From positions 1,385,501-1,449,500 of the forward strand of contig NZ_CP030117.1 in the NCBI RefSeq assembly GCF_001039275.2: a DNA stretch of 64,000 nucleotides. Direction: 5' to 3'. The first letter of the stretch is position 1. Each line of letters begins with the position of its first letter. Positions 1-14,696 of this stretch are shown piece after piece. The translations under genes and the position numbers were made by a program. The notes beneath the pieces are model-generated. The model ran no database searches and was not told the origin of the DNA. It saw only the letters and a program-made list of their open reading frames with translations. The DNA is from Brevibacillus brevis. Its GTDB lineage: Bacteria > Bacillota > Bacilli > Brevibacillales > Brevibacillaceae.

Positions 1-620
1 GGGAAGTAATCAAGGCCGCATCGACCAAGCCTTTCGGGTTCATGCCGTTTTACCCGGGACCCGGAATCGGTGGGCATTGCATACCGCTCGATCCGATGTA
101 TTTGTCGTGGAAGGCCAAGGGCTTTCGTTTTCACAGCCAATTTATTGAGATCGCCCAATCGATTAATGACAACATGCCGGACTATGTGCGCAATAAGACA
201 GCACAGGTGCTCAACATTTACGCAAAAGCGATCAACAGCTCGCGCATCTTGATTCTCGGCATGGCCTACAAGCCGGAAGTTGATGACCTGCGTGAATCAC
301 CAGGTCTGGAAATTTACGAGCTGTTCACCAATAGCGGAGCAACTGTCGACTATTACGACCCGTATGCGCAGAGCTTTGTGAATAAAAAAGGCGAGATCGT
401 CCATTCCATCGCCAATGACTACGAGGCGTTCAAGACTTACGATTGCATGGTGCTCATTACGAATCACCAATGCTTTGCTTATCAGGAGCTGGCGGATTTG
501 GGAGTGGCCATTATCGATACGCGAAATGCGTTTGAGGGCATCACGAATCCGAATGTATATCGCATCGGAACCTCCGTCGCTATCAGGCAGGAGAAGGAAG
601 TCGTTAGCTTGCTCGCATAA
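1..620 (+). CDS. Nucleotide-sugar dehydrogenase, C-terminal part (UDP-GlcNAc/UDP-glucose 6-dehydrogenase family)
   Basis: The reading frame is open to the left edge (first codon at base 3), so only the C-terminal part is present. The motif GPGIGGHCIPLDP holds the catalytic Cys of UDP-sugar 6-dehydrogenases, which oxidise the C6 hydroxyl of a UDP-hexose to a uronate using NAD. The following region has the helical linker (IEIAQSINDNMPDYV) and the C-terminal Rossmann-like domain (ILGMAYKPEVDDLRESP). The sequence around the Cys resembles the WbpA/TviB subgroup (UDP-GlcNAc 6-dehydrogenase) more than plain UDP-glucose dehydrogenase, but the substrate cannot be fixed. It lies 44 bp before glmS, consistent with a surface-polysaccharide precursor operon. 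Confidence 0.88.
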   Translation, partial: EVIKAASTKPFGFMPFYPGPGIGGHCIPLDPMYLSWKAKGFRFHSQFIEIAQSINDNMPDYVRNKTAQVLNIYAKAINSSRILILGMAYKPEVDDLRESPGLEIYELFTNSGATVDYYDPYAQSFVNKKGEIVHSIANDYEAFKTYDCMVLITNHQCFAYQELADLGVAIIDTRNAFEGITNPNVYRIGTSVAIRQEKEVVSLLA

Positions 621-664: not shown

Positions 665-2497
665 ATGTGCGGAATTATGGGATATATCGGGAACAAGGAA
701 GCGCAGCCGATTCTAATCAATGGGCTGCGAAAGCTGGAATACAGAGGCTATGATTCGGCTGGCATTGCGATTTGTGACGGAGCAACCATCGGCATTCGCA
801 AAGCAAAAGGCAGAATTGACGTACTGGAGAGCCAAACCCAAAAGTCCGGCTTGCAGGGCTCCATCGGCATTGGTCATACGCGCTGGGCGACCCACGGACG
901 ACCGTCTGATGAAAACTCTCATCCTCATTTTGATCAATCCGGCAAGTTCTCGATCGTGCATAACGGCATTATCGAGAACTATCTGGATCTCAAGCAGGAG
1001 TTGATTGAAAAAGGCGTGACGTTTACTTCGGAGACGGATACGGAGGTCATCGTGCACCTTTTGGCGCAGGAATACGATGACAACCTGGTTGCGGCAGTGC
1101 AGAAGGTCGCTGGCAAAATTCGCGGAGCATTTGCTCTCGGTGTGATAACAGAGCATGAGCCTGACAAGCTGATTGCAGTTCGTATGGCAAGCCCGTTGAT
1201 TATCGGGGTAGGGGAGAATGAGAATTTTATCGGTTCTGATATCCCGGCGATCCTGGAGCATACGCGCGATGTGTACGTTCTCGAAGACGGAGACCTGGCG
1301 ATTCTGACCAAAGATTCAGTTCACCTCATGCGTCTGGATACGACTGAGCCAATCGAGCGAGAGCTGGTGCGTATTGAGTGGGACAAGGAGCAAGCGGAAA
1401 AAGACGGCTTTGCTCACTATATGCAAAAGGAAATTTACGAGCAGCCGCGAGCCCTGCGCAATACCATGACAGGTCGAATCGATGCTACCCAGCAAAAGGT
1501 TGTTTTCCCCAATCTTCAGCTATCGGAAGCGAGTGCCAAGAATGTGGAGAAAATCTACATTGTCGCATGCGGTACCGCTTATCATGCTGGCTTGATCGGC
1601 AAGCATGTGATCGAACGACTGGCACAGATTCCGGTAGAAGTAGATGTAGCGTCGGAGTTTCGTTACCGTCGCCCGCTCTTTCAGCCCAATACGCTTACGA
1701 TTGCCGTCAGTCAATCAGGGGAGACAGCAGATACATTGGCAGCCATGCGGGAAGCCAAACGAAACGGCTCAGCAGTACTCGCTATTACGAATGTAGTCGG
1801 TAGCTCGATTGCCCGTGATGCCGATGATGTGATTACGACAAATGCAGGTCCGGAAATCGCGGTTGCTTCGACGAAGGCATATACCTCGCAGCTGATTGCG
1901 TTTTACTTGTTCGGCATTTATTTGGCACAAGCGAAGGGGACGCTGGACGCTGACACCCGTGCTTCACTGCTTCACCAACTGACCAGTCTTCCGGATCAAG
2001 TCGAGCATATACTCGCGCATGCAGATGAGATACGTCATTTTGCTGAATCGATCAAGGACGAGCAGCATCTGTTTTTCATCGGACGAGGACTCGATCATGC
2101 GGTATCTATGGAAGGCTCGCTCAAGCTGAAGGAAATCTCGTATATTCACTCGGAGGCGTATGCGGCAGGAGAGCTAAAGCACGGCACGCTGGCGCTGATC
2201 GAAGAGGGAACGAGAGTCATCGCCCTGGCTACACAGGATGAGCTGCATGAAAAAATGATCAGTAATATTACAGAAGTGAAAGCCCGTGGAGCAAAAGTTC
2301 TCGGTATTACCTTGGAAGGACATGTAGAGCTGCATCGCTCGGTTGATGATGTTTGCCTGATTCCGCAGACAGATGCCTTGCTTACACCTGTTCTAGCCGT
2401 TATCCCCCTTCAGCTCATTTCCTATTACACTTCTGTTGCGCTCGGCAATGACGTAGATCGTCCACGAAATTTGGCCAAAAGTGTAACAGTTGAGTAA
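665..2497 (+). CDS. glmS: Glutamine-fructose-6-phosphate aminotransferase (isomerizing)
   Basis: GlmS makes glucosamine-6-phosphate from fructose-6-phosphate and glutamine, the first step to UDP-GlcNAc. The 610-residue protein begins Met-Cys-Gly, so removal of Met exposes the N-terminal nucleophile Cys. The N-terminal glutaminase domain (about 2-220, GHTRWATHG and HNGIIENY) is followed by two SIS isomerase domains (SQSGETADT, STKAYTSQ) and the conserved C-terminal tail NLAKSVTVE. The start is set by GGGAGG at about 650. The 44-bp gap to the upstream dehydrogenase is too short for a glmS ribozyme, so this copy is probably regulated with the polysaccharide cluster and may be a second glmS in the genome. 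Confidence 0.96.
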   Translation: MCGIMGYIGNKEAQPILINGLRKLEYRGYDSAGIAICDGATIGIRKAKGRIDVLESQTQKSGLQGSIGIGHTRWATHGRPSDENSHPHFDQSGKFSIVHNGIIENYLDLKQELIEKGVTFTSETDTEVIVHLLAQEYDDNLVAAVQKVAGKIRGAFALGVITEHEPDKLIAVRMASPLIIGVGENENFIGSDIPAILEHTRDVYVLEDGDLAILTKDSVHLMRLDTTEPIERELVRIEWDKEQAEKDGFAHYMQKEIYEQPRALRNTMTGRIDATQQKVVFPNLQLSEASAKNVEKIYIVACGTAYHAGLIGKHVIERLAQIPVEVDVASEFRYRRPLFQPNTLTIAVSQSGETADTLAAMREAKRNGSAVLAITNVVGSSIARDADDVITTNAGPEIAVASTKAYTSQLIAFYLFGIYLAQAKGTLDADTRASLLHQLTSLPDQVEHILAHADEIRHFAESIKDEQHLFFIGRGLDHAVSMEGSLKLKEISYIHSEAYAAGELKHGTLALIEEGTRVIALATQDELHEKMISNITEVKARGAKVLGITLEGHVELHRSVDDVCLIPQTDALLTPVLAVIPLQLISYYTSVALGNDVDRPRNLAKSVTVE

Positions 2498-2758: not shown

Positions 2759-3777
2759 ACATACATGCAGTAGTACTCGCAGCAGGAAAAGGAACCAGAA
2801 TGAAATCTTCGCTCTACAAGGTCATGCATCCAATTTGCGGGAAGCCGATGATTGAACATGTCGTAGAGACATTGGAAGCATTGTCACTTCGCCACTTGGT
2901 CGTCGTTGTCGGCCACGGAGCCGAAGTGGTCAAAGAGCAGTTGAAAAACCGCGTTCAGTATGCGTATCAACCGGAACAACTCGGTACTGCTCATGCTGTT
3001 TGGATGAGCCAGGAAATTCTTGGAGCGCAGGATGGCGTGACGATTGTCATGAATGGCGATACCCCGCTCGTACAAGAACAGACGCTGCGTAGTTTGCTCG
3101 AATATCACCAGTTGAAACAGGCAGCAGCCACGGTTTTGACCGCCATTGTGGACGAGCCTACAGGCTATGGCAGGATCATTCGCGACGAGAACGGCGATGT
3201 CCGTAAAATTATCGAGGAAAAAGACGCGACCTTGGGCCAAAAAAAGGTGAACGAGATCAGCACCGGAATCTTTTGCTTCGACAATCAAAAGCTGTTTTCA
3301 ATGCTGCCGATGGTCTCCAACGAAAACGCGCAAGGGGAGTTTTACTTGCCGGACGTTCTGGGGCTTTTGCAAGAGCAAGGTCATTTGGTAACGGCGTTTG
3401 CAACGGATGATCCCGAAGAAGGCAATGGCGTCAATGATCGTGTGCAGCTCGCTGATTTGGAACAGCTGATGCGCAAGCGAATCAACGATTTCCATATGCG
3501 AAACGGAGTTACGATGATAGACCCGAACTCGACTTACATCGATGCGGGCGTAATGATCGGGCGTGATACGGTGCTCTATCCGGGAACCTGCCTTTTTGGC
3601 GACACACAGATCGGTGAAGGCTGCCAGATCGGGCCACACGCGCTGGTCAAAAACAAGAGTATCGAGGATTATACCAGAATTCAGCCGTTTTCAGCGGTTG
3701 ACGGCAGTACGTTTGGTGAGCGGGCTTTTGCTAGAGTGGGAGCGACGACACAACTGTACGGTATCGACCAGCGCTGA
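2755..3777 (+). CDS. GlmU-like UDP-GlcNAc pyrophosphorylase lacking most of the acetyltransferase half
   Basis: The N-terminal 230 residues are a nucleotidyltransferase domain with the GlmU signature LAAGKGTRMKS...K (residues about 7-25), the metal-binding NGDTP motif near 100, and GYGRIIRD and NEISTGIF. This domain joins UTP and GlcNAc-1-P to give UDP-GlcNAc. A short left-handed beta-helix follows (about 250-335), but the protein stops at 340 residues while bifunctional GlmU is about 455, so the acetyltransferase active site appears missing. It overlaps the preceding small gene by 4 bp (ATGA). It is probably a cluster-specific paralog; the product sugar could differ from GlcNAc. Confidence 0.85.
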   Translation: MNIHAVVLAAGKGTRMKSSLYKVMHPICGKPMIEHVVETLEALSLRHLVVVVGHGAEVVKEQLKNRVQYAYQPEQLGTAHAVWMSQEILGAQDGVTIVMNGDTPLVQEQTLRSLLEYHQLKQAAATVLTAIVDEPTGYGRIIRDENGDVRKIIEEKDATLGQKKVNEISTGIFCFDNQKLFSMLPMVSNENAQGEFYLPDVLGLLQEQGHLVTAFATDDPEEGNGVNDRVQLADLEQLMRKRINDFHMRNGVTMIDPNSTYIDAGVMIGRDTVLYPGTCLFGDTQIGEGCQIGPHALVKNKSIEDYTRIQPFSAVDGSTFGERAFARVGATTQLYGIDQR

Positions 3778-4691
3778 TGCAGGTAATTCGTCGATATAGC
3801 TGGCTTTGGATAGCGCTGCTCCTTGTGACAGTGGCTTCGATCATCATGCTGTCGTTGGCAAACACCCGCTCCGCCCTGACAAAAGCAACCTGGATATGGG
3901 ATGCCAAGCAAATAGAGACCCAAACCGAGGAAATGATCGCGTTTGCCGAGAAAAACGATATCAACCTGATCTATCTTCACGTTGAACCAGCAGCTGTTGC
4001 GCCTCAGACGTATCGTACCTTCATTGAAAAAGCCAACCAGGCAGGTATTAAGGTAGAGGCGCTTGGCGGTGACCCCAATTGGGCGTTAACAGCGAATCGC
4101 CAGAGCATCGACGATCTGATCTCCTGGGTGAAGGCGTTCAATCGCAGTGCCAAGTCAGATGAACAATTCTCGGGGATTCACGTCGATATCGAGCCGTATC
4201 TGTTGCCTGCATGGAAGGAAGACCAGGGAGAAATCGTCCGGCAATGGCTGGAAAACGTCAGCTATCTGGCGGCAGAGACGAAGAAGGATACGGATCTCGC
4301 TGTCGGTGCAGACTTGCCTTTTTGGATCGACTCCGTAAACGTTCCTGACAGTGATGAAAAAGTGAGCAACTGGATGGTGCAGCGACTCGACAGTATTACG
4401 TTAATGGCCTACCGCAATCAAGCCCTTGGGCAAAATGGGATCGTCGAAATCGTAGAAAAGATCGTCGATGATGCCAATGTACGCAAAAAAGGGTCGGTCA
4501 TCGTAGGCGTCAACATCATGGAAACGATGGAAGGCGCTCATGTGAGCTTTTATGAAGAAGGCACAAAAGAGATGAACAACCAGTTGGCCATTTTACAGGA
4601 GGAGCTGTCTAGCAATCCGGCGTTTGCAGGAAGTGCGATCCATGATTACGAGAGCTGGAAGCACGCAAGTCAACGAGAGGAGCAACTTTGA
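3777..4691 (+). CDS. Membrane-anchored TIM-barrel-like protein, single-domain member of a tandem family
   Basis: The 304-residue protein has an N-terminal hydrophobic segment (about 10-28), so it is likely exported and anchored or cleaved. The body starts KATWIWDAKQI and contains alternating strand/helix segments such as NLIYLHVEP, GIKVEALGGDP, GIHVDIEPYLLPAW and SITLMAYRNQ. The DIEP and LMAYR strands recall barrel glycosidases of the GH18 type, where such a Glu is the acid; this is inference only. The same domain occurs twice in the next gene. Start and upstream stop share one base (TGATG), giving tight coupling. A role in trimming or modifying the polysaccharide made by the cluster is plausible, not shown. 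Confidence 0.7.
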   Translation: MQVIRRYSWLWIALLLVTVASIIMLSLANTRSALTKATWIWDAKQIETQTEEMIAFAEKNDINLIYLHVEPAAVAPQTYRTFIEKANQAGIKVEALGGDPNWALTANRQSIDDLISWVKAFNRSAKSDEQFSGIHVDIEPYLLPAWKEDQGEIVRQWLENVSYLAAETKKDTDLAVGADLPFWIDSVNVPDSDEKVSNWMVQRLDSITLMAYRNQALGQNGIVEIVEKIVDDANVRKKGSVIVGVNIMETMEGAHVSFYEEGTKEMNNQLAILQEELSSNPAFAGSAIHDYESWKHASQREEQL

Positions 4692-4694
4692 CGA

Positions 4695-6374
4695 ATGAAA
4701 GCTGCGCGCATCTATTTGAGTGTTCTCTGCCTGACGGTCGGCTTTCTGTTCGGCTTTTCCCCCGCGGAGAAGAAGAGTAAAGCAACGTGGATCTGGCAGT
4801 CCGAAATGATCGGGAGAGAGAAACAAGAGATTCTCGATTTCTGCAAAAGTAACGATATTAATCTCGTCTACTTGCGAATCGAAATGAACAAGCCCTATGA
4901 TTACTACCGCGATTTTATCCGCGAAGCGACAGAGATGGGGATCGAAGTTCATGCGGTTGCTGGCCATCCGGCATGGGCACTCAAAAGCAATGAAAAGCGG
5001 ATGATGAATATCGTCCACTGGGTAAAAAGCTACAACCGTGAAGCGCAGAAGAATGAGCGAATTCGCGGGATTCAGTTAGACATCGAGCCGTATCTCCTGC
5101 CTTTTTGGGAGGCCGATCAGAAGCGGATTATCCGTGAATGGCAAGCCAATGTGCAGGCGTTCACAGCCGAGGTGTCAAAAGATGAGGATTTGGTTGCCAG
5201 TGCAGCCATTCCATTTTGGCTGGACGATATTCCCGTTCCGGGACAAGAAGAGATGTCCTTGTCCAAATGGATGATCAGCCAGTTTGATACGGTATGTATC
5301 ATGGCGTATCGTGACACACTTTCCGGTCAGAACGGCATTCTGAATTTGATTGATCAGGAAATGAAGGAAGCGGATGAATTAGAGTCGCGTGTCTTGGTTG
5401 CTGTGAATATGAAGCCGCTGGATGAAGACCACACTTCTTTTGCAGAGGAAGGTCCGGCTCTCATGAAACAGCAAGTAGAGCAATTGCCTGCACATTTGGC
5501 ACAGCATCCGTCCTTCTCTGGTGTCGCGATTCATGATTATCGCAACTGGAAGGAGGCGATTCCACTGCCCCCGGAAACGAAGCAACGCTACAAAGGCACC
5601 TACATATGGCGTGCAGAATTGCTTGGCACGGAAAAGGAGGAAATTCTCTCCTTTGCGGAACAAAACGGGGTGAATCTCCTCTATGTTCGTCTCGATTTGG
5701 AGCAGCCGATTTCCTATTACCGCGATTTTGTGAGAGAGGCCCGTGAAGCGGGGATCGAAGTTCATGCGATGGGCGGTCATCCGATTTGGGCGATGTCTGA
5801 AAGTCGGAGCAAGATCATAAAGCTCGTGAATTGGGTGAAAGCCTACAATGAGTCTGTCTCGACAAAAGAGCAATTTCACGGCATTCACTTAGATATTGAG
5901 CCGTACGTCCTTCCTGCCTGGCGTGAGGATAAAGAGGCAGTTTTACGCCAGTGGATGGGTAACATCGAAGTTTTTGTCGAAGAGACCAAGAACGGAACTT
6001 CCTTGGAAGCAAGCGTCGACCTCGCGGCGTGGCTGGACAAGACACCGACTCCAGGTCAGCCCGAGTTGCCGTTTTCGCATTGGATGATCAAACAGCTTGA
6101 TCATACGACCTTGATGGCTTTTCGTGATCGAGCTCCTGGCATCATCGGCTTGGTCGAAAATCAGATGAAGTACGCAGAGAGCCTCCAGAAAAAGCTGGTC
6201 GTCGCTGTGGAAACGAAAGAGAGCCACGAAGGGAACGGGATCACCTTTTATGAGGAAGGGATGGGCGAAATGGATCGACAGCTAGATCTGGTGACAAAAG
6301 TGCTGGATCGATACTCCTCTTATTGGGGGCTCGCCATTCATGCGTATGACTACTGGAAAAACGGGAAAGAGTAG
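4695..6374 (+). CDS. Exported two-domain TIM-barrel-like protein (internal duplication)
   Basis: The 559 residues comprise a signal-like N-terminus (about 5-22) and two copies of the domain found in the preceding gene: copy 1 at about 30-285 (KATWIWQSEMI, GIQLDIEPYLLPFW, VCIMAYRD) and copy 2 at about 295-555 (KGTYIWRAELL, GIHLDIEPYVLPAW, TTLMAFRD). The shared LDIEP strand and MA(Y/F)RD strand are retained in both, so both barrels may be functional. The start is 3 bp after the previous stop with GAGAGGAG upstream. The substrate is unknown; a polysaccharide is suggested only by the neighbours. Confidence 0.7.
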   Translation: MKAARIYLSVLCLTVGFLFGFSPAEKKSKATWIWQSEMIGREKQEILDFCKSNDINLVYLRIEMNKPYDYYRDFIREATEMGIEVHAVAGHPAWALKSNEKRMMNIVHWVKSYNREAQKNERIRGIQLDIEPYLLPFWEADQKRIIREWQANVQAFTAEVSKDEDLVASAAIPFWLDDIPVPGQEEMSLSKWMISQFDTVCIMAYRDTLSGQNGILNLIDQEMKEADELESRVLVAVNMKPLDEDHTSFAEEGPALMKQQVEQLPAHLAQHPSFSGVAIHDYRNWKEAIPLPPETKQRYKGTYIWRAELLGTEKEEILSFAEQNGVNLLYVRLDLEQPISYYRDFVREAREAGIEVHAMGGHPIWAMSESRSKIIKLVNWVKAYNESVSTKEQFHGIHLDIEPYVLPAWREDKEAVLRQWMGNIEVFVEETKNGTSLEASVDLAAWLDKTPTPGQPELPFSHWMIKQLDHTTLMAFRDRAPGIIGLVENQMKYAESLQKKLVVAVETKESHEGNGITFYEEGMGEMDRQLDLVTKVLDRYSSYWGLAIHAYDYWKNGKE

Positions 6375-6442: not shown

Positions 6443-6949
6443 ATGCGAGATGTGCAAAACCGACATCGAAATCTTCCGCAGCGTACGCCAGAGATGTTGT
6501 ACAACGTGGTGCGCAAGTTTTACCGTGGAGCAGTCAGTCATTTTGACCTGATTCAGGAGAAAAAACAGGAAGCACGTGCAGCCTTGGAAGCTGGTGACCA
6601 CGACAAAATCCGTGCAGCCGTGCACACGTTATTTTTGGAGTTCCATTTTTATGTGACCTGCTGGCTCCAGATTGAGCTTGCCCTGTATCGGCTGGCGCGT
6701 CAGGATGAACGCCTTGCGCAAGTGATGGAAAGATATCGATCATCGATGGAAAAGCATGTAGCGGTACGGCAACTGCTGGAACAGACGGAGGCGTGTGTGG
6801 AGGCGCAGTTTCAACCAAACGGGGATGGATGGTCCTGCGTGCAGAAGGATGCCTACGTGTTTGGCAGCATCATTTTTACAGTGGATGAAGAGAGTCTGCA
6901 AGATTTGCATGCTGTGTATCAGGCGATTTGGGGAAATGTAGACTGCTAA
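6443..6949 (+). CDS. Hypothetical protein (168 aa)
   Basis: I do not recognise the family. The protein is soluble, helix-rich and contains several Trp/Cys residues (FYVTCWLQIELALY; GDGWSCVQKDAYVFGS). No signal peptide or membrane segment is seen. AGAGGAG lies about 9 bases before the ATG, and a strong terminator follows the stop, so it closes the operon-like run that starts with the UDP-sugar dehydrogenase. Confidence 0.6.
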   Translation: MRDVQNRHRNLPQRTPEMLYNVVRKFYRGAVSHFDLIQEKKQEARAALEAGDHDKIRAAVHTLFLEFHFYVTCWLQIELALYRLARQDERLAQVMERYRSSMEKHVAVRQLLEQTEACVEAQFQPNGDGWSCVQKDAYVFGSIIFTVDEESLQDLHAVYQAIWGNVDC

Positions 6950-7006: not shown

Positions 7007-7807
7007 TTAGAAAGTTCCTGGGAAGATTGACCCTGTGTGTGGAGCAGCCTGACCTGGAGCGTTCAATTGGCGCACCTCTTGCACATTCGTGCCAGCAAAA
7101 CCCGGATTGAAGACAGATTGTGCTCCCATGCCGAGTGTATTAGCATAAGCCTGCTGTTGCTGTAGAGGCTGCTGTTGCTGTAGAGGCTGCTGTGCTTGCA
7201 GACCGAAGCCCGTGTTGTTCAATTGGCGTACTTCTTGAACATTGGTTCCGGCAAAGCCTGGGGAAAAGATGCTGCCAGCATTTCCAGCTTGGTTTACAAA
7301 GCCCGTTTGTCCAGGGAAGCCAGTTTGACCTGCGAAGCCAGTTTGACCCGCAAAGTTGTTATAGCCAGCTTGATTTCGCGCCTGAACCTCTTGAACATTG
7401 GTTCCAGCAAAGCCGGGAGAAAAGACCGAGTTCGCTCCGCCACCAAATGCTGGTTGATACGATGGCTGCGCCTGGATGTACTGGGATGCCTGATTTTGCC
7501 CAAAACCAAATTGTTGTTGCTGCTGTTGTACTGGGTAGCCAGCATTTTGCTGTCTTACTTCTTGAGCATTGGTATTTGCAAAGCCTGGGGAAAAGATGGA
7601 TTGGGCACCACCGACTCCGCCACTGAAGGATGCAGCAGATGAAGGCGCTCCGATGGATGGTGCATGACCACCTTGGTTCCAATACTGTACTTCTTGTACG
7701 TTGGTTCCAGCGAAGCCTGGTTGGAACATAGAACCTGCAGGGCTTACTGCACCGAAAAATTGAGGTTGTTGCTGGGATTGCATCATATTGTTATTTGTGT
7801 AGGTCAT
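7007..7807 (-). CDS. Gamma-type small acid-soluble spore protein-like repeat protein
   Basis: The 266-residue protein is built from five copies of a motif close to FSPGFAGTNVQEVRQLN, separated by Gln/Gly/Ala/Asn-rich spacers. The motif parallels the SspE repeat FASETNAQQVRKQN of gamma-type SASPs, and one copy reads FANTNAQEVRQQN. Gamma SASPs are spore-core amino-acid reserves cut by the Gpr protease, normally about 80-100 residues with two or three repeats, so this one is much larger. The start was moved to 7807 because GGAGGTGG (7816-7823) lies 8 bases upstream. A GCATG-N19-CATGACA pair upstream recalls a sigma-G promoter but has a non-ideal spacer. Confidence 0.72.
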   Translation of the reverse strand: MTYTNNNMMQSQQQPQFFGAVSPAGSMFQPGFAGTNVQEVQYWNQGGHAPSIGAPSSAASFSGGVGGAQSIFSPGFANTNAQEVRQQNAGYPVQQQQQQFGFGQNQASQYIQAQPSYQPAFGGGANSVFSPGFAGTNVQEVQARNQAGYNNFAGQTGFAGQTGFPGQTGFVNQAGNAGSIFSPGFAGTNVQEVRQLNNTGFGLQAQQPLQQQQPLQQQQAYANTLGMGAQSVFNPGFAGTNVQEVRQLNAPGQAAPHTGSIFPGTF

Positions 7808-7868
7808 GGTTAAGACCACCTCCATGGAGTATTTTTTCCAAGCTTGGTTTTGTCATGCATCCGATAAC

Positions 7869-8178: not shown

Positions 8179-9486
8179 TTATCCTGCGGCACTCCCTCGC
8201 TTGCTCTGCAAGTGAGAGACATGCTGTGCGTAGTGGATCAAATTCGCTAACGATAATCGTCGAATCGATGGTTCATCGAATTTCTCCGGCTTTGCATTCG
8301 CTTCAAAGAGCCATAGCTTTCCTTCTTCTGTCAAGCCAAGGTCCATCGACATCTCAGCCAAATCTGTCCATTCTGCATTTAATGACCGTGCGATGGCGAG
8401 CGCCGTATCGTGAATGTGTCTTTCCATTTGCTCGTGATTATTATGAAACAAGGCTTGCATAACGGTAGATAACGAGTGGATCGAGCCACCGCGTGGCACA
8501 TGAGTGGTGATGCTTTGCGAGCCAGACCTTCTAATGCCAACTCCGGTTACGCTCCACTCGCCCTCGCCATCTTTCTGCACGAGGACGCGCACATCAAAAG
8601 GTTTGCCGTTGTAACGGGCACGACGAATACCTTGCTGCATGATGTACTTCTGCTGTTTGACATGAAGTCTAATATGCTTCCATACGTCATTCAAATTGGA
8701 AAAGCGGCGAGTAATGGCCTTTTGCTCCTTTAACCGTTGCAGGAACCACTTATCGTTTCTGAAATCAATGCGCATAATTCCCTGACCAGCCCTACCGCGC
8801 ACGGGTTTCAAGTAGACAAAGCGATGTTCTGTGCAAAAGCTTCGAAACCGAGCCAAGGTGTCCAATTGTTTTGTCTCCGGTAGAAAAGCTTGCACTTCCA
8901 AGTGGGACTCAAGCATCGTAAAGAGCTGTTGCTTGTCAAAAAAGCCGCGATTAAACAATGTGACATTTGGCATCTCATGTATGCGGTTCAATGCTCTGCG
9001 GACTTCAGGTCGCCGTTCTGCTTTTCTCGTCGGTATTCGGTTGTAAACCACATGGGGGAAAGGTAGAATCACCTCTTGCCACGAGTTTAGACGACTGTTG
9101 TACAAATAGCCGCGCACCTTTTTCTTCTCCCAATTGATTCCTTGTGGAGTGAACACAAATACGAGTGCACCCCATTGCTTCCCCGATTGAGTAATATCCT
9201 TGAAGTTCTCGCGATTTCCTAAAAATGTTGCCCCTTCACCAACGGTCAATATGCCAAATAATGGGCCAAGCTTCAGGGAGTCGCCCGCCATTTTCCAGTT
9301 AATGCGTGTACGAATACGGCTTGCTTGCACGCGGGGTAAACCAGCGTATATCCGTTTCGTATGAGAAAAGGGACCGAGACTGGCGACCAGTGGCTTTGGC
9401 GAGCGTTTAAGGACTAGCCGAGGTAACTGTACGAACCATCTACCGCTAGGGAGGATCGTCAGCCACCCGGAGCGCTGCTGAAGCAT
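8179..9486 (-). CDS. YheC/YheD-family ATP-grasp spore coat-associated protein
   Basis: The 435-residue protein has an N-terminal beta-rich part with LGPLFGILTVGEG, then an ATP-grasp fold: VYLKPVRGRAGQGIMRI (lysine plus glycine-rich loop), GKPFDVRVLVQKD, DLAEMSMDLGLTEEGKLWLFEANAKP (metal-binding acidic residues, Glu and Asn at the end). This is the pattern of B. subtilis YheC and YheD, described as endospore coat-associated proteins. ATP-grasp enzymes usually ligate a carboxylate to an amine; the substrate here is unknown. AAGGAGGA precedes the start. It is the last of four paralogs in one transcription unit. Confidence 0.88.
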   Translation of the reverse strand: MLQQRSGWLTILPSGRWFVQLPRLVLKRSPKPLVASLGPFSHTKRIYAGLPRVQASRIRTRINWKMAGDSLKLGPLFGILTVGEGATFLGNRENFKDITQSGKQWGALVFVFTPQGINWEKKKVRGYLYNSRLNSWQEVILPFPHVVYNRIPTRKAERRPEVRRALNRIHEMPNVTLFNRGFFDKQQLFTMLESHLEVQAFLPETKQLDTLARFRSFCTEHRFVYLKPVRGRAGQGIMRIDFRNDKWFLQRLKEQKAITRRFSNLNDVWKHIRLHVKQQKYIMQQGIRRARYNGKPFDVRVLVQKDGEGEWSVTGVGIRRSGSQSITTHVPRGGSIHSLSTVMQALFHNNHEQMERHIHDTALAIARSLNAEWTDLAEMSMDLGLTEEGKLWLFEANAKPEKFDEPSIRRLSLANLIHYAQHVSHLQSKRGSAAG

Positions 9487-9527
9487 GGTGTTCCTCCTTC
9501 CTGAAAAACGGTACAGATCGCGTGCGA

Positions 9528-10904
9528 CTAGAAATTGGCCAAATAACAGCTATAATCGACGAGCAGCTTGCGTGATTCTTGATCAGCCTGCCTGAGACGA
9601 GCGTGCTTGAATATAGAACGGCCAGGCTTGGAGTTCGCTTCGAACATCCAGACATGGCCTTGCGTATCAATTCCCATGTCCAGCCCTAATTCGCCTAAAT
9701 CAATCCCTTTGGCCAGTTCAATTGCGGTAGCCAGACGGATCGACGCTTCTGAAATGCGCTGGGTCATGAGGGCTTTTTGTCTGCCAAACAGGTGCTGCAA
9801 CAGGTCATCGCCGGGGATGACAGTTCCACCTGTACGCACGTGGGTAGTTACGCTGCCAGAACCGGCAACCTTGGCTGCCGTGCACGAGACAACCCACTCG
9901 TTTTGCTGATTTTTATGCAAGTGAACACGAAAATCAAACGGACGTCCATGGAATGTCATGAGCGGAATGCCCTGTTGTGCCAGATACGCACTGACTCGCC
10001 GACTGCGGAAGACATGCTGATAAAGGCTGGACAGCTTGGAAAATTGCCTTTTTACATTGCCGCTGCTTGTATGATAGGAGGCAGTAAAGCCACCCCCTGC
10101 CTGGCGAACAACTTTGACAATACCGTACCCGAGACTTCCATTTTTGGGCTTCAAATAAACGATAGGGTATTTACGCAGCAAGTTTCGAACAGTCGTAAGG
10201 GAAGGAGAGGTGTAAGTCTCCGGGATATGCTCATTCACTTCTGGATTCGGATACAGCAGTTGATGTACGCCCCATTTGTTAAAAAAGCCCTGATTGAACA
10301 TCGGTAAATTGGGGTAACTGGCGAGTCGATACTTGAATTCCTGAACGGCTTCATGCTTTTCTGCCGAACGAGAGGGAATACGATCATAGACGACATCGGG
10401 CATGGCGGTAACATGCTTTTTCCAAAAGTAGCCGCCTGACTTGTTTCTGCGCAAAAACCACGCTTTGACCGTATTGGATTCCCAGTCTACATCGGTTGGG
10501 GAAAATATATAGTAGAAAACACCCTTCCCTTCTTGAGCCTGTAACAGATTGTAAAAAAACGAGGTGCGAGAGCCAATTGGCTGCTTGGGATCTCGTCTTA
10601 TGCCAGTCGTAACGATCCCGATTGAAGGACCGATCCGGAGTGCGGAGCCCTCTAGCTTGAGCTGGATCAAGCCAGGGTGTGGAATGCCCAGCTCTGCTTG
10701 CAAGAGCGTCGTCACTTTCAGGACGTTCGTATCCGGATTGCGTTTATCTTGTAAGACAGTTGCGACTACTTCCTTTTTGCCCAGTAAGACTTTAATTTTT
10801 TGGCGTTGTCGTAGCTGTAGCTGTTGGAAGAGAGTAGCTGGCAGGATAATCCCACTGATACGGGGGTTGGAAAGGAAGCGAAGCCGCATTCTGAACGTTT
10901 CCAT
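9528..10904 (-). CDS. YheC/YheD-family ATP-grasp protein
   Basis: The 458-residue paralog has the full family layout: N-terminal beta domain (about 1-120, ending RIGPSIGIVTTG), a middle segment with MPDVVYDRIPSRSAE and FNQGFFNKWGVHQLL, and an ATP-grasp domain with VYLKPKNGSLGYGIVKV, GRPFDFRVHLHKN and DLGELGLDMGIDTQGHVWMFEANSKPGR. The EANSKP end holds the metal-binding Glu/Asn. GGAGG lies 8 bases before the ATG and overlaps the end of the upstream gene, so the two are translationally close. A role in spore coat or cortex maturation is inferred from the family. Confidence 0.88.
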   Translation of the reverse strand: METFRMRLRFLSNPRISGIILPATLFQQLQLRQRQKIKVLLGKKEVVATVLQDKRNPDTNVLKVTTLLQAELGIPHPGLIQLKLEGSALRIGPSIGIVTTGIRRDPKQPIGSRTSFFYNLLQAQEGKGVFYYIFSPTDVDWESNTVKAWFLRRNKSGGYFWKKHVTAMPDVVYDRIPSRSAEKHEAVQEFKYRLASYPNLPMFNQGFFNKWGVHQLLYPNPEVNEHIPETYTSPSLTTVRNLLRKYPIVYLKPKNGSLGYGIVKVVRQAGGGFTASYHTSSGNVKRQFSKLSSLYQHVFRSRRVSAYLAQQGIPLMTFHGRPFDFRVHLHKNQQNEWVVSCTAAKVAGSGSVTTHVRTGGTVIPGDDLLQHLFGRQKALMTQRISEASIRLATAIELAKGIDLGELGLDMGIDTQGHVWMFEANSKPGRSIFKHARLRQADQESRKLLVDYSCYLANF

Positions 10905-10907
10905 GCT

Positions 10908-11996
10908 TTAACCTCCTACACGCTCTTTCATAAGATAGTGGGCGTAGCGAACAGGCTGAGTAATCGAATGCAGTTGTGCAGTCGGGTCGTCAATCATGCG
11001 AAAAACGGTTCGCCCTGGTCTGCTGTTTACCTCGATGATCCAAACATTACCTGCGGTGTCGATGCCAATATCGATTCCCAGCTCAACGAGTCTGCCGTGT
11101 GACTCTTCCAAAAAACGGGGAAGTTCTTCTGCCACTCGGTTGATTGTTTGCTCGATGCGTGCCGCTTTTGTGGATGTGAAGTGAAGGGGCAGGAAAGAGG
11201 CCAGAGGTGTTGCTTTCCCTCCTCCGTGCAAATTGGAGGTGATACTGCGTTTGTCTCCCAGGCGCACAGCTTTGCCAGTTGTCCCCCATTTACCCAGCCC
11301 GTTTTTTTGAACCAGAACACGGACATCGAATGGGGTACCATCCGGGGTATGCAGCTCCAAATAGGGCTGTACCAGGAACTTACGGCCGGCAGTAAAGACA
11401 GACACAAAACTTTTTAACCCGGCAGTGTCACGAATTCGCCTGGTGAAAGGCGTATTGTCTCGGTTTCGTCCGGAAGCTTCATAGCCACTGCGCATTTCTT
11501 TGATTCTCACAACGCCAATACCGTGAGTTCCCGCCATCGGCTTGATAATGGCTGCCCCGTATTTTTGCAAGGTTGCATGGAGCACAGGATATGAGAATAT
11601 TTCAGTAGGCGGGAGCAGCGGGGCGAGGAGAGGGGACTTAACGAGCATCTGGTGCACCTGCCATTTTCCAGACAGACCATGCCCCAAAAACGTAATGTTG
11701 CGATCGTTTTGCAACTTTTCCACAAATGGTTTATAGTGGCGATAAGATGGGCCCACAAAGCAACGATCATAGATAAAGGCGGGAATTGGGAAGTCTTTCG
11801 CGTGCCAGGACCCATTGCGATATTCGAAGCCTTTTACCATACGGGTGGAAAAGTTAACCTGACGTGGTGAAAAAACGAAGACGCGAATACCGTGCTTGCG
11901 TCCATAGAGCGTAAGCTTTTTGTAGTACCCTTTGTCTACAAAGTGGGAGCCTTGGCACCGGGCCATGATGCCAAGACTTCTCTTGGATGCTGTCAT
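10908..11996 (-). CDS. YheC/YheD-family ATP-grasp protein (short form)
   Basis: At 362 residues this paralog lacks the N-terminal beta domain and begins directly at LGIMARCQGS. The ATP-grasp elements are present: AIIKPMAGTHGIGVVRI, GTPFDVRVLVQKN and VELGIDIGIDTAGNVWIIEVNSRPGR. I chose the ATG at 11996, 5 bases after AAGGTGA; a GTG at 12005 would overlap the upstream stop (GTGA) and is possible. It is in the same four-gene run and its stop codon is next to the ribosome binding site of the following paralog. Confidence 0.87.
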   Translation of the reverse strand: MTASKRSLGIMARCQGSHFVDKGYYKKLTLYGRKHGIRVFVFSPRQVNFSTRMVKGFEYRNGSWHAKDFPIPAFIYDRCFVGPSYRHYKPFVEKLQNDRNITFLGHGLSGKWQVHQMLVKSPLLAPLLPPTEIFSYPVLHATLQKYGAAIIKPMAGTHGIGVVRIKEMRSGYEASGRNRDNTPFTRRIRDTAGLKSFVSVFTAGRKFLVQPYLELHTPDGTPFDVRVLVQKNGLGKWGTTGKAVRLGDKRSITSNLHGGGKATPLASFLPLHFTSTKAARIEQTINRVAEELPRFLEESHGRLVELGIDIGIDTAGNVWIIEVNSRPGRTVFRMIDDPTAQLHSITQPVRYAHYLMKERVGG

Positions 11997-12001
11997 GTAG
12001 G

Positions 12002-13447
12002 TCACCTTCGCCTGTTTTTGTTGCGCTTCGGTTTTCTTTTTATCGTCTTTTGTGGTTGTATGGTCCGGGGAAAACCACTTAGAAAGGCGGAATAATCCAG
12101 CATGCGAATGACAGAAGGGCGAGCACGCCGAGGCAGCTCTTCGGCACCTTCAGGCAGCGGAACAGTTTTGGCTGACTTGGATGGCTTGCTGTTGACCTCC
12201 AATAGCCACACCCGTCCATGAACATCGACTCCCAGGTCAATTCCGAATTCTGCATACTGCCCAGGCAGGGATTCCTCTAAAAGGATCGCGAGCTTAAGTG
12301 CTACTGCGTGTAACGTTTGAGGAGATGGTCGAATCGCGCTCGCCCGTGGTCCACAAACTCGCAGCGCCTGAAGGGGAGTCATCATCTGCCCGCCTCTGGA
12401 TATATTGGAAACAATGTGGTTTAATCCCAGTCGAGCTACCATGGAAGTGATGGACCATTCGCCTTTTCGGTCTTTTTGAACCAATACACGAAAATCTGTC
12501 GGTCGTCCTTGGATGCCGATTAACGCTAACCCTTGTTGCAGCAAATAGGATGTGCCTTTTATCCTTTTTTGCAAATACTGATGTAAGCCCTGAATGCTAG
12601 CAAATGATTTGCGCAATCCTCCAGGGAACGCGAGCTGGTATCCCTCGGGCGAACTGCGAATTCGAATGATCCCGCGCCCCATGCTGCCGTTAGCTGGTTT
12701 TGCATAAACGGTGCGATACGTAGATAGCATTTTCTGCAGGTCTTCCTGTTTCAAATACCGAACCATACTGGGAAGATGCTCGGAGGCTGTCGGTTGATTC
12801 TCGAGAGCGGTGTGTACATGCCACTTATTCAAAAAACGCTCGTTAAAAAAGGGAATGGAAGCGTCCTTGCAGCGTTGGACCCAGTTGGCCATCTGTTCAC
12901 TTCGTTCGCGTTGGCGGGATATGAGCCGGTTGTAAATGCATTGTGGAAGCGGAAGTAAGGTTTGTCTCCAGACGCCTCCTCTTCTAACGAGGCCACGAAC
13001 GATTCCCGTATCCCAGTTGACATCCTGAAGCCGAAATGTGCAAAGGATACCTCCGCGTTTACGGGTGATATCGGACATCTCCTGGAAGAAAGAGTTTAGG
13101 TGTCCAAACGGTGCTTTCGGGAACGCTGCATTGTAGGTCGAAACAAGAACACCTACATACGGTCCGAAAACGATTGTTTTCTGACTCGCATCATAACGGA
13201 CTAAGAGTGGAACGCCCCTGGGTAGATATAGGGATTGAGCTAAAGATGGTCGTATGAAGGTTTTACCCGAGGTTTTGCCTCCCCGTTCCGAACCGCCTAC
13301 GCGTGCGGAAACGGTTTTGCTCCCAAATTGAACCGCAATGGTGGACGGTGTTGAAAGATTCCATTTGCGCAAGTGCGCCTGGGGCAGGTAAAGGTCTACT
13401 TCCGATATTATCTCGTTTTCGACAACGATTGTTGGAACGTAAGACAT
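12002..13447 (-). CDS. YheC/YheD-family ATP-grasp protein (first gene of the run)
   Basis: The open frame extends further upstream, but MSYVPTIVVENE at 13447 is the likely start because GGGAAGGGG lies just before it and the longer version would run through the divergent yheB. The 481-residue protein has the N-terminal beta domain (VDLYLPQAHLRKWNL, FGPYVGVLVST) and an ATP-grasp domain with VYAKPANGSMGRGIIRI, GRPTDFRVLVQKD and EFGIDLGVDVHGRVWLLEVNSKPS. Its promoter must lie in the 91-bp gap to yheB, where I cannot assign a sigma factor. Confidence 0.87.
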   Translation of the reverse strand: MSYVPTIVVENEIISEVDLYLPQAHLRKWNLSTPSTIAVQFGSKTVSARVGGSERGGKTSGKTFIRPSLAQSLYLPRGVPLLVRYDASQKTIVFGPYVGVLVSTYNAAFPKAPFGHLNSFFQEMSDITRKRGGILCTFRLQDVNWDTGIVRGLVRRGGVWRQTLLPLPQCIYNRLISRQRERSEQMANWVQRCKDASIPFFNERFLNKWHVHTALENQPTASEHLPSMVRYLKQEDLQKMLSTYRTVYAKPANGSMGRGIIRIRSSPEGYQLAFPGGLRKSFASIQGLHQYLQKRIKGTSYLLQQGLALIGIQGRPTDFRVLVQKDRKGEWSITSMVARLGLNHIVSNISRGGQMMTPLQALRVCGPRASAIRPSPQTLHAVALKLAILLEESLPGQYAEFGIDLGVDVHGRVWLLEVNSKPSKSAKTVPLPEGAEELPRRARPSVIRMLDYSAFLSGFPRTIQPQKTIKRKPKRNKNRRR

Positions 13448-13538
13448 GAGTATCCCCTTCCCATCAGGCAAAGTTAGTCTATGGTATGAGCATCCAAAAC
13501 GTTTGGTGCCATGTAGAGAAGAGAGGTTGTTAGTATTT

Positions 13539-14696
13539 ATGAACGCTTGGGTACTATTAGTGAACATTGCAGTAGGCTCTGTCATCGGTGGGGTGACGAA
13601 TGAGTTAGCCATCCGAATGCTGTTTAAACCAGTAAAACCGTGGTATATAGGCAGGTGGAAAGTGCCTTTTACCCCAGGATTGATCCCGAGGAGACGGGAC
13701 GATATCGCGATACAAATGGGCAGACTCGTCGAAGAACATTTGCTGACGACAGAGGGAATCAAGCGTGCGCTGAATCAGAGTGGTTTGGAGAGCACACTGA
13801 CAGGATGGATGAACACGATTGCTCGCGACTGGATGACAGATGAGCGTAGTCTACGTCAAGCATTGCTCACAGTGATGCCACAGTTATTTCAGGAAGACGG
13901 AACGTGGAGTGAGGGTGTCCGCGCGCCTATCGAGACGAAATGGGGTACTTTTGTCGAACAGGTTCTGGCACAATATGAAGAGAAAAAACTGCGAGAGTTG
14001 GTTACGGACAACGGACGCGAGCGTCTGGATGCTGCACTTGGCAGTGTGAGCGAACTGCTCTTGAAACGTTTCCGCGAATATTTACATTCCCCGGAAGGCC
14101 AGCAAACCTTGCAAAACATGGTGCGTGGATTGCTCGGTGGAGGCGGAGGCATGTTTGGCGGCTTGGTCGGGATGTTTCTGGGGGATGACAAGATTTTGGG
14201 CAAGATTCTCCCGTATCTTGATGAGCTTTTGCAAAGCAGAGAGCTTTCGGAGCGCGTGCACTACTTTTTGCATAAGGAAGCGGACAAGCTCTTGGACAAA
14301 AATGTGGGCGAAGTAGTTGCTTGGATTGGGCGAGATCAAGTGGACGATTGGGCGCGGAAGCTTTTTACCAAGTTGGAGGAGCAAAGCCTGCGCATCGTAG
14401 ACGAGCCTCTATCTCGTTTGACAGCGCCTATTTCCGAAACGGTGACAACGGAACTCGTTCCTCGTTTAGCAAAGTGGATGGTGGACACGCTGCAACAAAA
14501 CATAGAGAGAATATTTTCGCGTCTGGCCATCCGGGATATTGTTACCCGGCAAGTAGAGGGGTTCCCAATTGAAAGAATTGAAGAGATGGTAGTCGGGATC
14601 TCAGGGAAGGAATTCCGCATGATTACCGTGCTCGGATTCATCCTTGGCGGGATTATTGGGCTTGTCCAAGGGATATTGGCAAATTTGCTCAGTTAA
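13539..14696 (+). CDS. yheB: DUF445 membrane protein YheB
   Basis: The 385-residue protein has an N-terminal membrane segment (WVLLVNIAVGSVIGGVTNELAIRMLF) and a C-terminal one (ITVLGFILGGIIGLVQGILANLL), with a long soluble helical region between them, as in the UPF0754/DUF445 family. The start at 13539 gives a length close to B. subtilis YheB and a proper membrane anchor; GAGAGG lies 12 bases upstream. In B. subtilis yheB, yheC and yheD are neighbours, and the same partnership is kept here but divergently. Its biochemical role is not known to me. Confidence 0.88.
   Translation: MNAWVLLVNIAVGSVIGGVTNELAIRMLFKPVKPWYIGRWKVPFTPGLIPRRRDDIAIQMGRLVEEHLLTTEGIKRALNQSGLESTLTGWMNTIARDWMTDERSLRQALLTVMPQLFQEDGTWSEGVRAPIETKWGTFVEQVLAQYEEKKLRELVTDNGRERLDAALGSVSELLLKRFREYLHSPEGQQTLQNMVRGLLGGGGGMFGGLVGMFLGDDKILGKILPYLDELLQSRELSERVHYFLHKEADKLLDKNVGEVVAWIGRDQVDDWARKLFTKLEEQSLRIVDEPLSRLTAPISETVTTELVPRLAKWMVDTLQQNIERIFSRLAIRDIVTRQVEGFPIERIEEMVVGISGKEFRMITVLGFILGGIIGLVQGILANLLS

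Follow-up and report, generated by a model that had tools for sequence, protein, structure and literature searches.

Introduction

A hydrolase encoded within a polysaccharide synthesis system has several precedents: PgaB, BcsZ and PssZ (PMC5933820) and PelA (PMC12022489). The C-terminal domain of PgaB, assigned to glycoside hydrolase family 153 (GH153) and linked to poly-N-acetylglucosamine (PNAG), is an extracytoplasmic barrel hydrolase encoded together with a PgaC-type synthase (PMC5933820), and the Pss system of Listeria (pssA-E and PssZ) pairs a PgaC/IcaA-like synthase, without the other ica genes, with a separate hydrolase (PMC4125290, PMC11439720). Here we analyse a 64,000-nucleotide stretch of Brevibacillus brevis (‘the window’; assembly GCF_001039275.2, contig NZ_CP030117.1, positions 1,385,501 to 1,449,500), in which two adjacent genes encode three copies – D1 in the first gene, D2 and D3 in the second – of a domain of approximately 264 residues, within a gene run that includes a PgaC/IcaA-like synthase. 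We consider it rather likely that the three domains are extracytoplasmic glycoside hydrolase-like barrels, distant kin of GHL10, that serve a synthase-dependent exopolysaccharide system, with D1 trimming the polymer.

The locus differs from each of its closest described counterparts. The likeness to PgaB is one of fold and layout: the probable catalytic acid of GH153 is Asp474, while the D1 family has an Asp-x-Glu pair. PssZ was dropped as a counterpart of the domain since it has been placed in GH126, with an (alpha/alpha)6 barrel (PMC7479077, PMC13363691), and Pss also differs in having a BcsB-like protein and a cyclic di-GMP (c-di-GMP) receptor (PMC4125290). GHL10/Cwp19 of Clostridioides difficile shares the barrel fold, but Cwp19 is a cell-surface autolysin (PMC6016235), whereas the context of D1 is polysaccharide synthesis.

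Fold and family relationships of the domains

As judged by BLASTP, all three pairings of the domains are far beyond chance: D1 and D2 share 42.0% identity over 264 residues (E 4e-81), D1 and D3 41.4% over 268 residues (E 2e-76), and D2 and D3 41.7% over 264 residues (E 6e-85). This bears out the proposal of a first-pass annotation, made from the sequence alone, that two adjacent genes carry three copies of one domain, each with LDIEP- and MAYRD-like strands: the motifs read VDIEP, LDIEP and LDIEP, and MAYRN, MAYRD and MAFRD in D1, D2 and D3, respectively, and differ by single letters only. The AlphaFold2 model of D1, built with a 71-row alignment, is an eight-stranded barrel, in agreement with the fold proposed earlier, with a predicted local distance difference test (pLDDT) score of 97.0, a predicted template modelling (pTM) score of 0.93, and strands at positions 2-7, 31-35, 59-64, 100-103, 142-148, 173-177, 207-213 and 250-256. 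The fold of D2 and D3 is assigned from homology to D1. Hydropathy suggests that a hydrophobic N-terminal segment probably anchors the D1 protein in the membrane, and that the tandem D2-D3 protein is probably secreted.

Conservation in the family is highest at the C-terminal ends of the barrel strands. In the 71 rows D104 is present in 70, E106 in 69, W150 in 71, R180 in 70 and H256 in 71 (domain numbering; D104 and E106 are D137 and E139 of the D1 protein). The 25 most conserved positions include W8, G65, W69, D104, E106, P107, W150, R180, H256 and W261, as well as structural ones such as G100, D172 and G252. Mean column entropy is 1.47 bits at the C-terminal ends of the strands, 1.94 bits at their N-terminal ends and 2.06 bits elsewhere, and the conservation of the strand ends is equalled or bettered by 5 of 270 circular shifts. 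D104 and E106 follow strand 4, E106 lying three residues past the strand, and D146 is near the end of strand 5. In the model, the conserved D104-x-E106 sits on the catalytic face. Of the refuting conditions set in the first-pass annotation (no barrel, or a conserved Glu outside a pocket), the predicted D1 structure withstands the first, and the second as far as the face of the barrel goes.

When the D1 model was compared with solved structures using VIA-align 2, Cwp19 came first (5oq2; Z 21.1, root-mean-square deviation (rmsd) 3.4, 247 residues aligned), followed by many rows at Z 17-18 that include GH18 chitinases (4mnl; Z 18.1, rmsd 3.4, 229 aligned), PgaB of GH153 (4p7o; Z 17.6, rmsd 3.8, 240 aligned) and others. 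A likeness to the GH18 fold, with which the first-pass annotation had suggested comparison, is borne out by these matches and by the top Foldseek rows. GH114, also named there, was not singled out by any search, being absent from the Pfam scan matches listed and from the 50 fold rows listed, though this does not exclude a relation. A common fold does not mean a common function.

By sequence, the window proteins have no Pfam, NCBIfam or PHROGs match above cut-off (the sub-threshold Pfam matches to Sec6, MEDS and DNA_photolyase were taken as chance) and none to GHL10 (PF02638) at E values up to 1. A scan of 71 family members against Pfam likewise gave no convincing match, although one member reaches GHL10 at E 0.0036 among the matches listed; the D1 family does not reach the curated Pfam cut-off for GHL10, and PF00704 (GH18) is not among the matches listed for either the window proteins or the 71 members, the listing for the latter covering 25 of 28 families. 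Profile-profile comparison with HHalign, using GHL10 and GH18 alignments of 16 rows each from related genomes, aligned the D1 family collinearly with GHL10 over 218 columns (P 5.7e-6, probability 69%). No relation was detected to GH18 (P 0.38, with a shallow GH18 alignment drawn from 21 genomes), and comparison with the GH-A-like family of the same operon gave P 0.51. At strand 4 GHL10 shares the G-[IV]-H-L-D stretch, but continues with D-Y where the D1 family has I-E-P. On these sequence comparisons we regard D1, D2 and D3 as members of an unnamed family that appears to be a distant relative of GHL10 and not part of it.

Although the top Foldseek rows pointed to GH18, we did not place the domains there, as the profile comparison detected no relation and half of the motif is absent. 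The strand-4 motif of GH18 is DxxDxDxE, and GH18 enzymes have Asp or Asn after the Met-x-Tyr of strand 6. The D1 family has GxHxDxE, which corresponds to the last Asp and the Glu of the complete motif and lacks its first two Asp residues; the Asp-x-Glu spacing and a Met-x-Tyr/Phe stretch at strand 6 are shared, but the residue after the latter is Arg.

When PDB sequences were searched with the family profile (up to E 10), four matches were listed: 10yv, at E 8e-30, and three GTPases at E 0.39-1.1; PgaB is not among the four, though a missing match does not exclude a relation. Deposited as ‘Putative GH97 from Cellulomonas fimi’, 10yv is a sequence relative of 275 residues with an LDVEP motif, but it lacks both R180 and H256, and GH97 is the depositors’ label; GH97 enzymes are much larger. 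No viral relatives of the domain were found in viral_contigs. The closest predicted viral fold in BFVD is a protein of Terrestrivirus, a giant virus (A0A3G4ZKF2; template modelling (TM) score 0.85, 14% identity).

The gene run and its spread

The part of the run upstream of the window encodes a 740-aa protein, a HEAT protein, a family-2 glycosyltransferase and a protein with a receiver domain at its end, and the gene for a nucleotide-sugar dehydrogenase begins there as well; inside the window the dehydrogenase is followed, in order, by GlmS, a GlmU-like protein, D1 and D2-D3 (Table 1). The GlmU-like and D1 genes share one base, at the stop of the former and the start of the latter, and the D1 and D2-D3 genes lie 3 bases apart; promoter and terminator scans gave counts near the shuffle level (5 versus 3.7 and 4 versus 4.6, respectively). 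The glycosyltransferase (480 aa) is nearest to PgaC/IcaA, with a TIGR03937 score of 134.5 bits, under the 422.3-bit cut-off. Against solved chains, the dehydrogenase is nearest to UDP-N-acetylhexosamine (UDP-HexNAc) dehydrogenases: UDP-N-acetylmannosamine (UDP-ManNAc) dehydrogenase at 4e-71 and Cap5O at 2e-68, with the first UDP-glucose dehydrogenase at 1e-39. The GlmU-like protein ends about 128 model positions early, without the end of the acetyltransferase part, and may therefore keep uridylyltransferase but not acetyltransferase activity.

The 740-aa protein has no Pfam match. Modelling of its homologue from locus L086 (pLDDT 74.6) gave an N-terminal helix, a clan GH-A-like barrel nearest to GH157 (Z 27.8) and then to GH2 glucuronidases and galacturonidases (Z 23-25), and a strand-rich part. 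One gene run thus holds the features of a synthase-dependent exopolysaccharide operon: a family-2 synthase, precursor genes and a hydrolase-like protein. No deacetylase domain was found among the scanned proteins of the run. The earlier description of an operon making activated amino sugars, while right about GlmS and the GlmU-like protein, was too narrow, as the run also has the synthase, the HEAT and receiver-domain proteins, the sugar-nucleotide dehydrogenase and a second glycosidase-like protein.

The domain is also found fused to the 740-type protein. In the window genome (one 6.44 Mb contig), a whole-genome search with a profile of the three domains recovered D1, D2, D3 and one more copy, at contig position 2,204,067, where a second, paralogous run carries the domain and the 740-type protein in one 1026-aa frame; the GlmU version of this run has 458 aa. 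A genome from another family (L151) has this fusion too, and it is also seen, as adjacent matches within 1024-1026-aa frames, in three further genomes of the genus (G011, G022 and G023), making five genomes in total. Four loci from other families (L147, L149, L150 and L152) have a GH-A-like protein with a different N-terminal part of approximately 370-390 aa; as whole proteins, these have no Pfam match at E 0.01.

A single scan found at least 543 relatives of the domain, and the 79 loci studied are the best-scoring of these, and are hence biased towards near relatives. Among the 79, the synthase is present at 31, the 740-type (GH-A-like) gene at 32, HEAT at 31, the dehydrogenase at 29, and GlmS and GlmU at 20 each. 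Synthase-linked loci include those of Pontibacillus, Salibacterium, Halobacillus, Gracilibacillus, Aquibacillus, Paenibacillus, Cohnella and Aneurinibacillus. Of 205 domain rows, 203 carry the labels ‘synthase-linked’ or ‘single’ that we use; these labels cannot be relied on for L004-L044 and L144-L146, loci whose length of about 3.8 kb is insufficient to reveal the operon. A 168-aa protein encoded after the tandem gene (window 6443-6949), with no convincing family match, is found at 9 of the 79 loci, all of named Brevibacillus. At locus L056 (G188), a distant synthase set accompanied by CotH, VTC and DUF4956 genes lies with a family member, hinting at a connection with CotH-type loci.

The association extends to whole genomes. 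All 26 genomes of the genus that were searched, the window genome included, have the domain in three to five copies; named loci nearly identical to that of the window mark the genus as Brevibacillus. In an evenly drawn class sample of 398 genomes (the window genome and 24 others of its genus among them), the domain is present in 96, the 740-type gene in 107 and both in 87; the latter gene is thus found in 87 of 96 domain carriers versus 20 of 302 other genomes, or in 62 of 71 versus 20 of 302 once the 25 genomes of the window genus are set aside. Counted by genus, the figures are 20 of 23 versus 13 of 122 (Fisher p 4e-13, kinship between genera being ignored). In an evenly drawn phylum sample, the domain occurs in 14 of 398 genomes, one of which is the window genome.

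Given this recurrence of the synthase set beside D1 in many Bacillales, together with the fusions, D1 probably acts as a membrane-anchored hydrolase that processes the polymer of a synthase-dependent exopolysaccharide system. Alternatively, the domains might act on peptidoglycan or the cell wall, as lytic transglycosylase-like hydrolases of the Cwp19 kind, and only travel with polysaccharide genes. While Cwp19 is the best structural match, GHL10 the only profile match of the three families compared, and no synthase is seen close to the domain at 48 of 79 loci, we judge this quite improbable: linkage and co-occurrence with the synthase set hold across many genera, the domain is fused to the GH-A-like protein of that set, and its strand-4 sequence is unlike that of GHL10.

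Divergence and origin of the tandem domains

D2 differs from its two neighbours. We compared 53 tandem frames, of which L006 is a truncated duplicate of the window gene and L138 is partial. The conserved Glu has been lost in 13 of 52 readable D2-type domains (11 Lys, 2 Gln) versus none of 53 D3-type domains (Fisher p 5e-5, with no correction for kinship). Visual inspection of the tree described below assigns the losses to about four lineages: L017, L082, L103 and one Paenibacillus clade. L017 itself was left out of the tree as a near-copy, and its kept Brevibacillus neighbours have the Glu. Positions H102 and D146 are coupled: all 19 first domains with Gln at 102 have Ala at 146, and of the 99 single domains, 84 carry His and Asp, while both positions are changed in 14, only 146 in one and only 102 in none. 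The 19 Gln/Ala frames (18 genes, L006 repeating the window gene) all come from places where the tandem adjoins D1, the window gene included. The window D2 accordingly keeps the Asp and the Glu and has Gln and Ala in place of the His/Asp pair, whereas D1 and D3 keep both pairs.

The first-pass annotation had inferred three working domains. The Asp-x-Glu is indeed present in all three, but, with D2 lacking the coupled His/Asp pair and D2-type domains repeatedly losing the Glu, the claim is weakened and must be considered doubtful. D2 may be weakened or non-catalytic, and may grip the polymer for D3. Furthermore, strand-7 position 213 holds Glu in D3 but Asn in D1 and D2, so the three cannot share a retaining mechanism based on E106 and a Glu of strand 7.

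Elsewhere in the family, all 53 D3-type domains and all 38 single domains labelled synthase-linked retain both D104 and E106; among the 59 remaining single domains, D104 is present in 58 and E106 in all 59. This bears on whether the domains could be non-catalytic polysaccharide-binding barrels that hold or guide the polymer, in the manner of inactive GH18-fold lectins and inhibitors. Xylanase inhibitors (9k1m, 3mu7) and the chitinase-like BRP39 (5xep) are among the fold matches, and D2-type domains that have lost the Glu are still retained; we nevertheless find this unlikely, since a pure binder would not need the two residues that D3-type and synthase-linked single domains invariably keep.

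The history of the copies was read from a tree of domain rows: of 205 rows, four were dropped as short and near-copies (at least 90% identity) were removed, leaving 137 of 201, and the root was placed at the midpoint. First tandem domains (T1, the type of D2) form one clade in 30 of 32 cases (support 100/98), 29 of 30 second tandem domains (T2, the type of D3) form another together with one single domain (100/99), and the two clades, each with both Brevibacillus and Paenibacillus, are sisters (95/83). D1 is in a separate clade of 35 rows, 27 of them labelled synthase-linked (99/93). The tandem of L152 arose on its own (100/100). Since the sister T1 and T2 clades span the two genera and D1 lies elsewhere, the tree places D2-D3 as an old tandem pair and D1 as another lineage, not a recent copy, the three having been brought together.

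The ‘triplicated’ domain of the first-pass annotation is therefore not borne out as a local event. Three adjacent copies, each with Asp-x-Glu, and the side-by-side single and tandem copies of 21 of 26 genus genomes (counted by hand) would fit a local triplication that yielded three active enzymes acting on related substrates. This reading is nonetheless very unlikely, in view of the tree, the missing His/Asp pair of D2, the loss of the Glu in other D2-type domains, and the five genus genomes (G003, G004, G010, G021 and G025) in which the tandem has no neighbouring single copy.

Features of the window

Table 1. Features of the D1/D2/D3 locus in window coordinates; residues in protein numbering
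Feature	Position	Strand	Basis or remarks
Nucleotide-sugar dehydrogenase, 3' part; full protein 453 aa, start before the window	1..620	+	full gene L002:14259-15620
GlmS, glutamine-fructose-6-phosphate transaminase	665..2497	+	NF001484, E 1.2e-254
GlmU-like protein, 340 aa	2755..3777	+	aligns to positions 2-319 of 447-position GlmU model
Gene 1, 304 aa: hydrophobic N-terminal segment (residues ~10-28) and one barrel domain, D1	3777..4691	+	
Domain D1, predicted (beta/alpha)8 barrel	3876..4688	+	AlphaFold2 model, conservation
D1 residue D137	4185-4187		
D1 residue E139	4191-4193		
Other D1 residues: H135, D179, R213, N246, H289			
Gene 2, 559 aa: signal-peptide-like hydrophobic N-terminus and two tandem barrel domains	4695..6374	+	hydropathy only
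Domain D2 (T1 type)	4761..5567	+	D129 and E131 kept; Q127 and A171 replace His/Asp pair; N238 at strand 7
Domain D3 (T2 type)	5568..6371	+	H398, D400, E402, D442, R477, E506 and H549 all present

Further along the window, on the minus strand, lies a gene for a 272-aa Gln/Gly-rich protein (7007-7825) with five copies of a motif like S-x-F-x-PGFAGTNVQEV. It adjoins four neighbouring long frames of 435, 458, 365 and 586 aa (8179-13762, minus strand), which we take to resemble paralogous YheC/YheD-type ATP-grasp proteins of spore formers.

Discussion

In the scheme that we propose, enzymes supplying HexNAc and uronate precursors would feed the PgaC/IcaA-like synthase, which would extrude a polymer with HexNAc and probably also HexNAc-uronic acid among its sugars. 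Anchored in the membrane next to the synthase, D1 would cleave or trim the emerging chain, with E106 as the putative general acid and D104 as its helper in a substrate-assisted reaction by analogy to GH18; such a mechanism has been suggested for PgaB by comparison (PMC5765458). The nearly invariant R180 may meet the carboxylate of the uronate, a possibility raised by the operon's dehydrogenase. In the tandem protein, which is probably secreted, D3 could be a second active copy that trims further out, and D2 may hold the chain for it.

Several observations weigh against this reading. No activity is known for any family member found. The nearest fold, Cwp19, acts on peptidoglycan (PMC6016235), the profile match to GHL10 has a probability of only 69%, and GH18 offers neither a detectable sequence relation (P 0.38, from a shallow alignment) nor its full motif in the family. 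The solved relative 10yv is without R180 and H256. The 48 of 79 loci without a synthase were inspected up to 9 kb to either side, the contig ending sooner at some of them, and many genomes have extra copies of the domain; the substrate may therefore not be this polymer for every copy. Finally, the GH-A-like gene is absent from 9 of 96 domain carriers and present in 20 genomes without the domain.

A bolder and distinctly tentative possibility is that the locus represents a new Bacillales system, composed of a PgaC-like synthase, HEAT and receiver proteins, a membrane-anchored GH-A-like barrel, a GHL10-like barrel and its own supply of UDP-HexNAc and UDP-HexNAc-uronate, in which D2 has turned to gripping the polymer and the change of its His/Asp pair coincides with the tandem gene adjoining the synthase operon. 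Its status as undescribed rests on our literature searches on the operon, the C. fimi structure and the polymer, which returned nothing relevant and did not extend to subscription papers.

The domain points to a large family, with at least 543 relatives and no matched Pfam or NCBIfam model, that is tied to a polysaccharide set common in Bacillales. If the proposed role is correct, the domains would be candidate enzymes for trimming biofilms or capsules, and D2 and D3 together would constitute a natural experiment in losing catalysis while the domain is kept.

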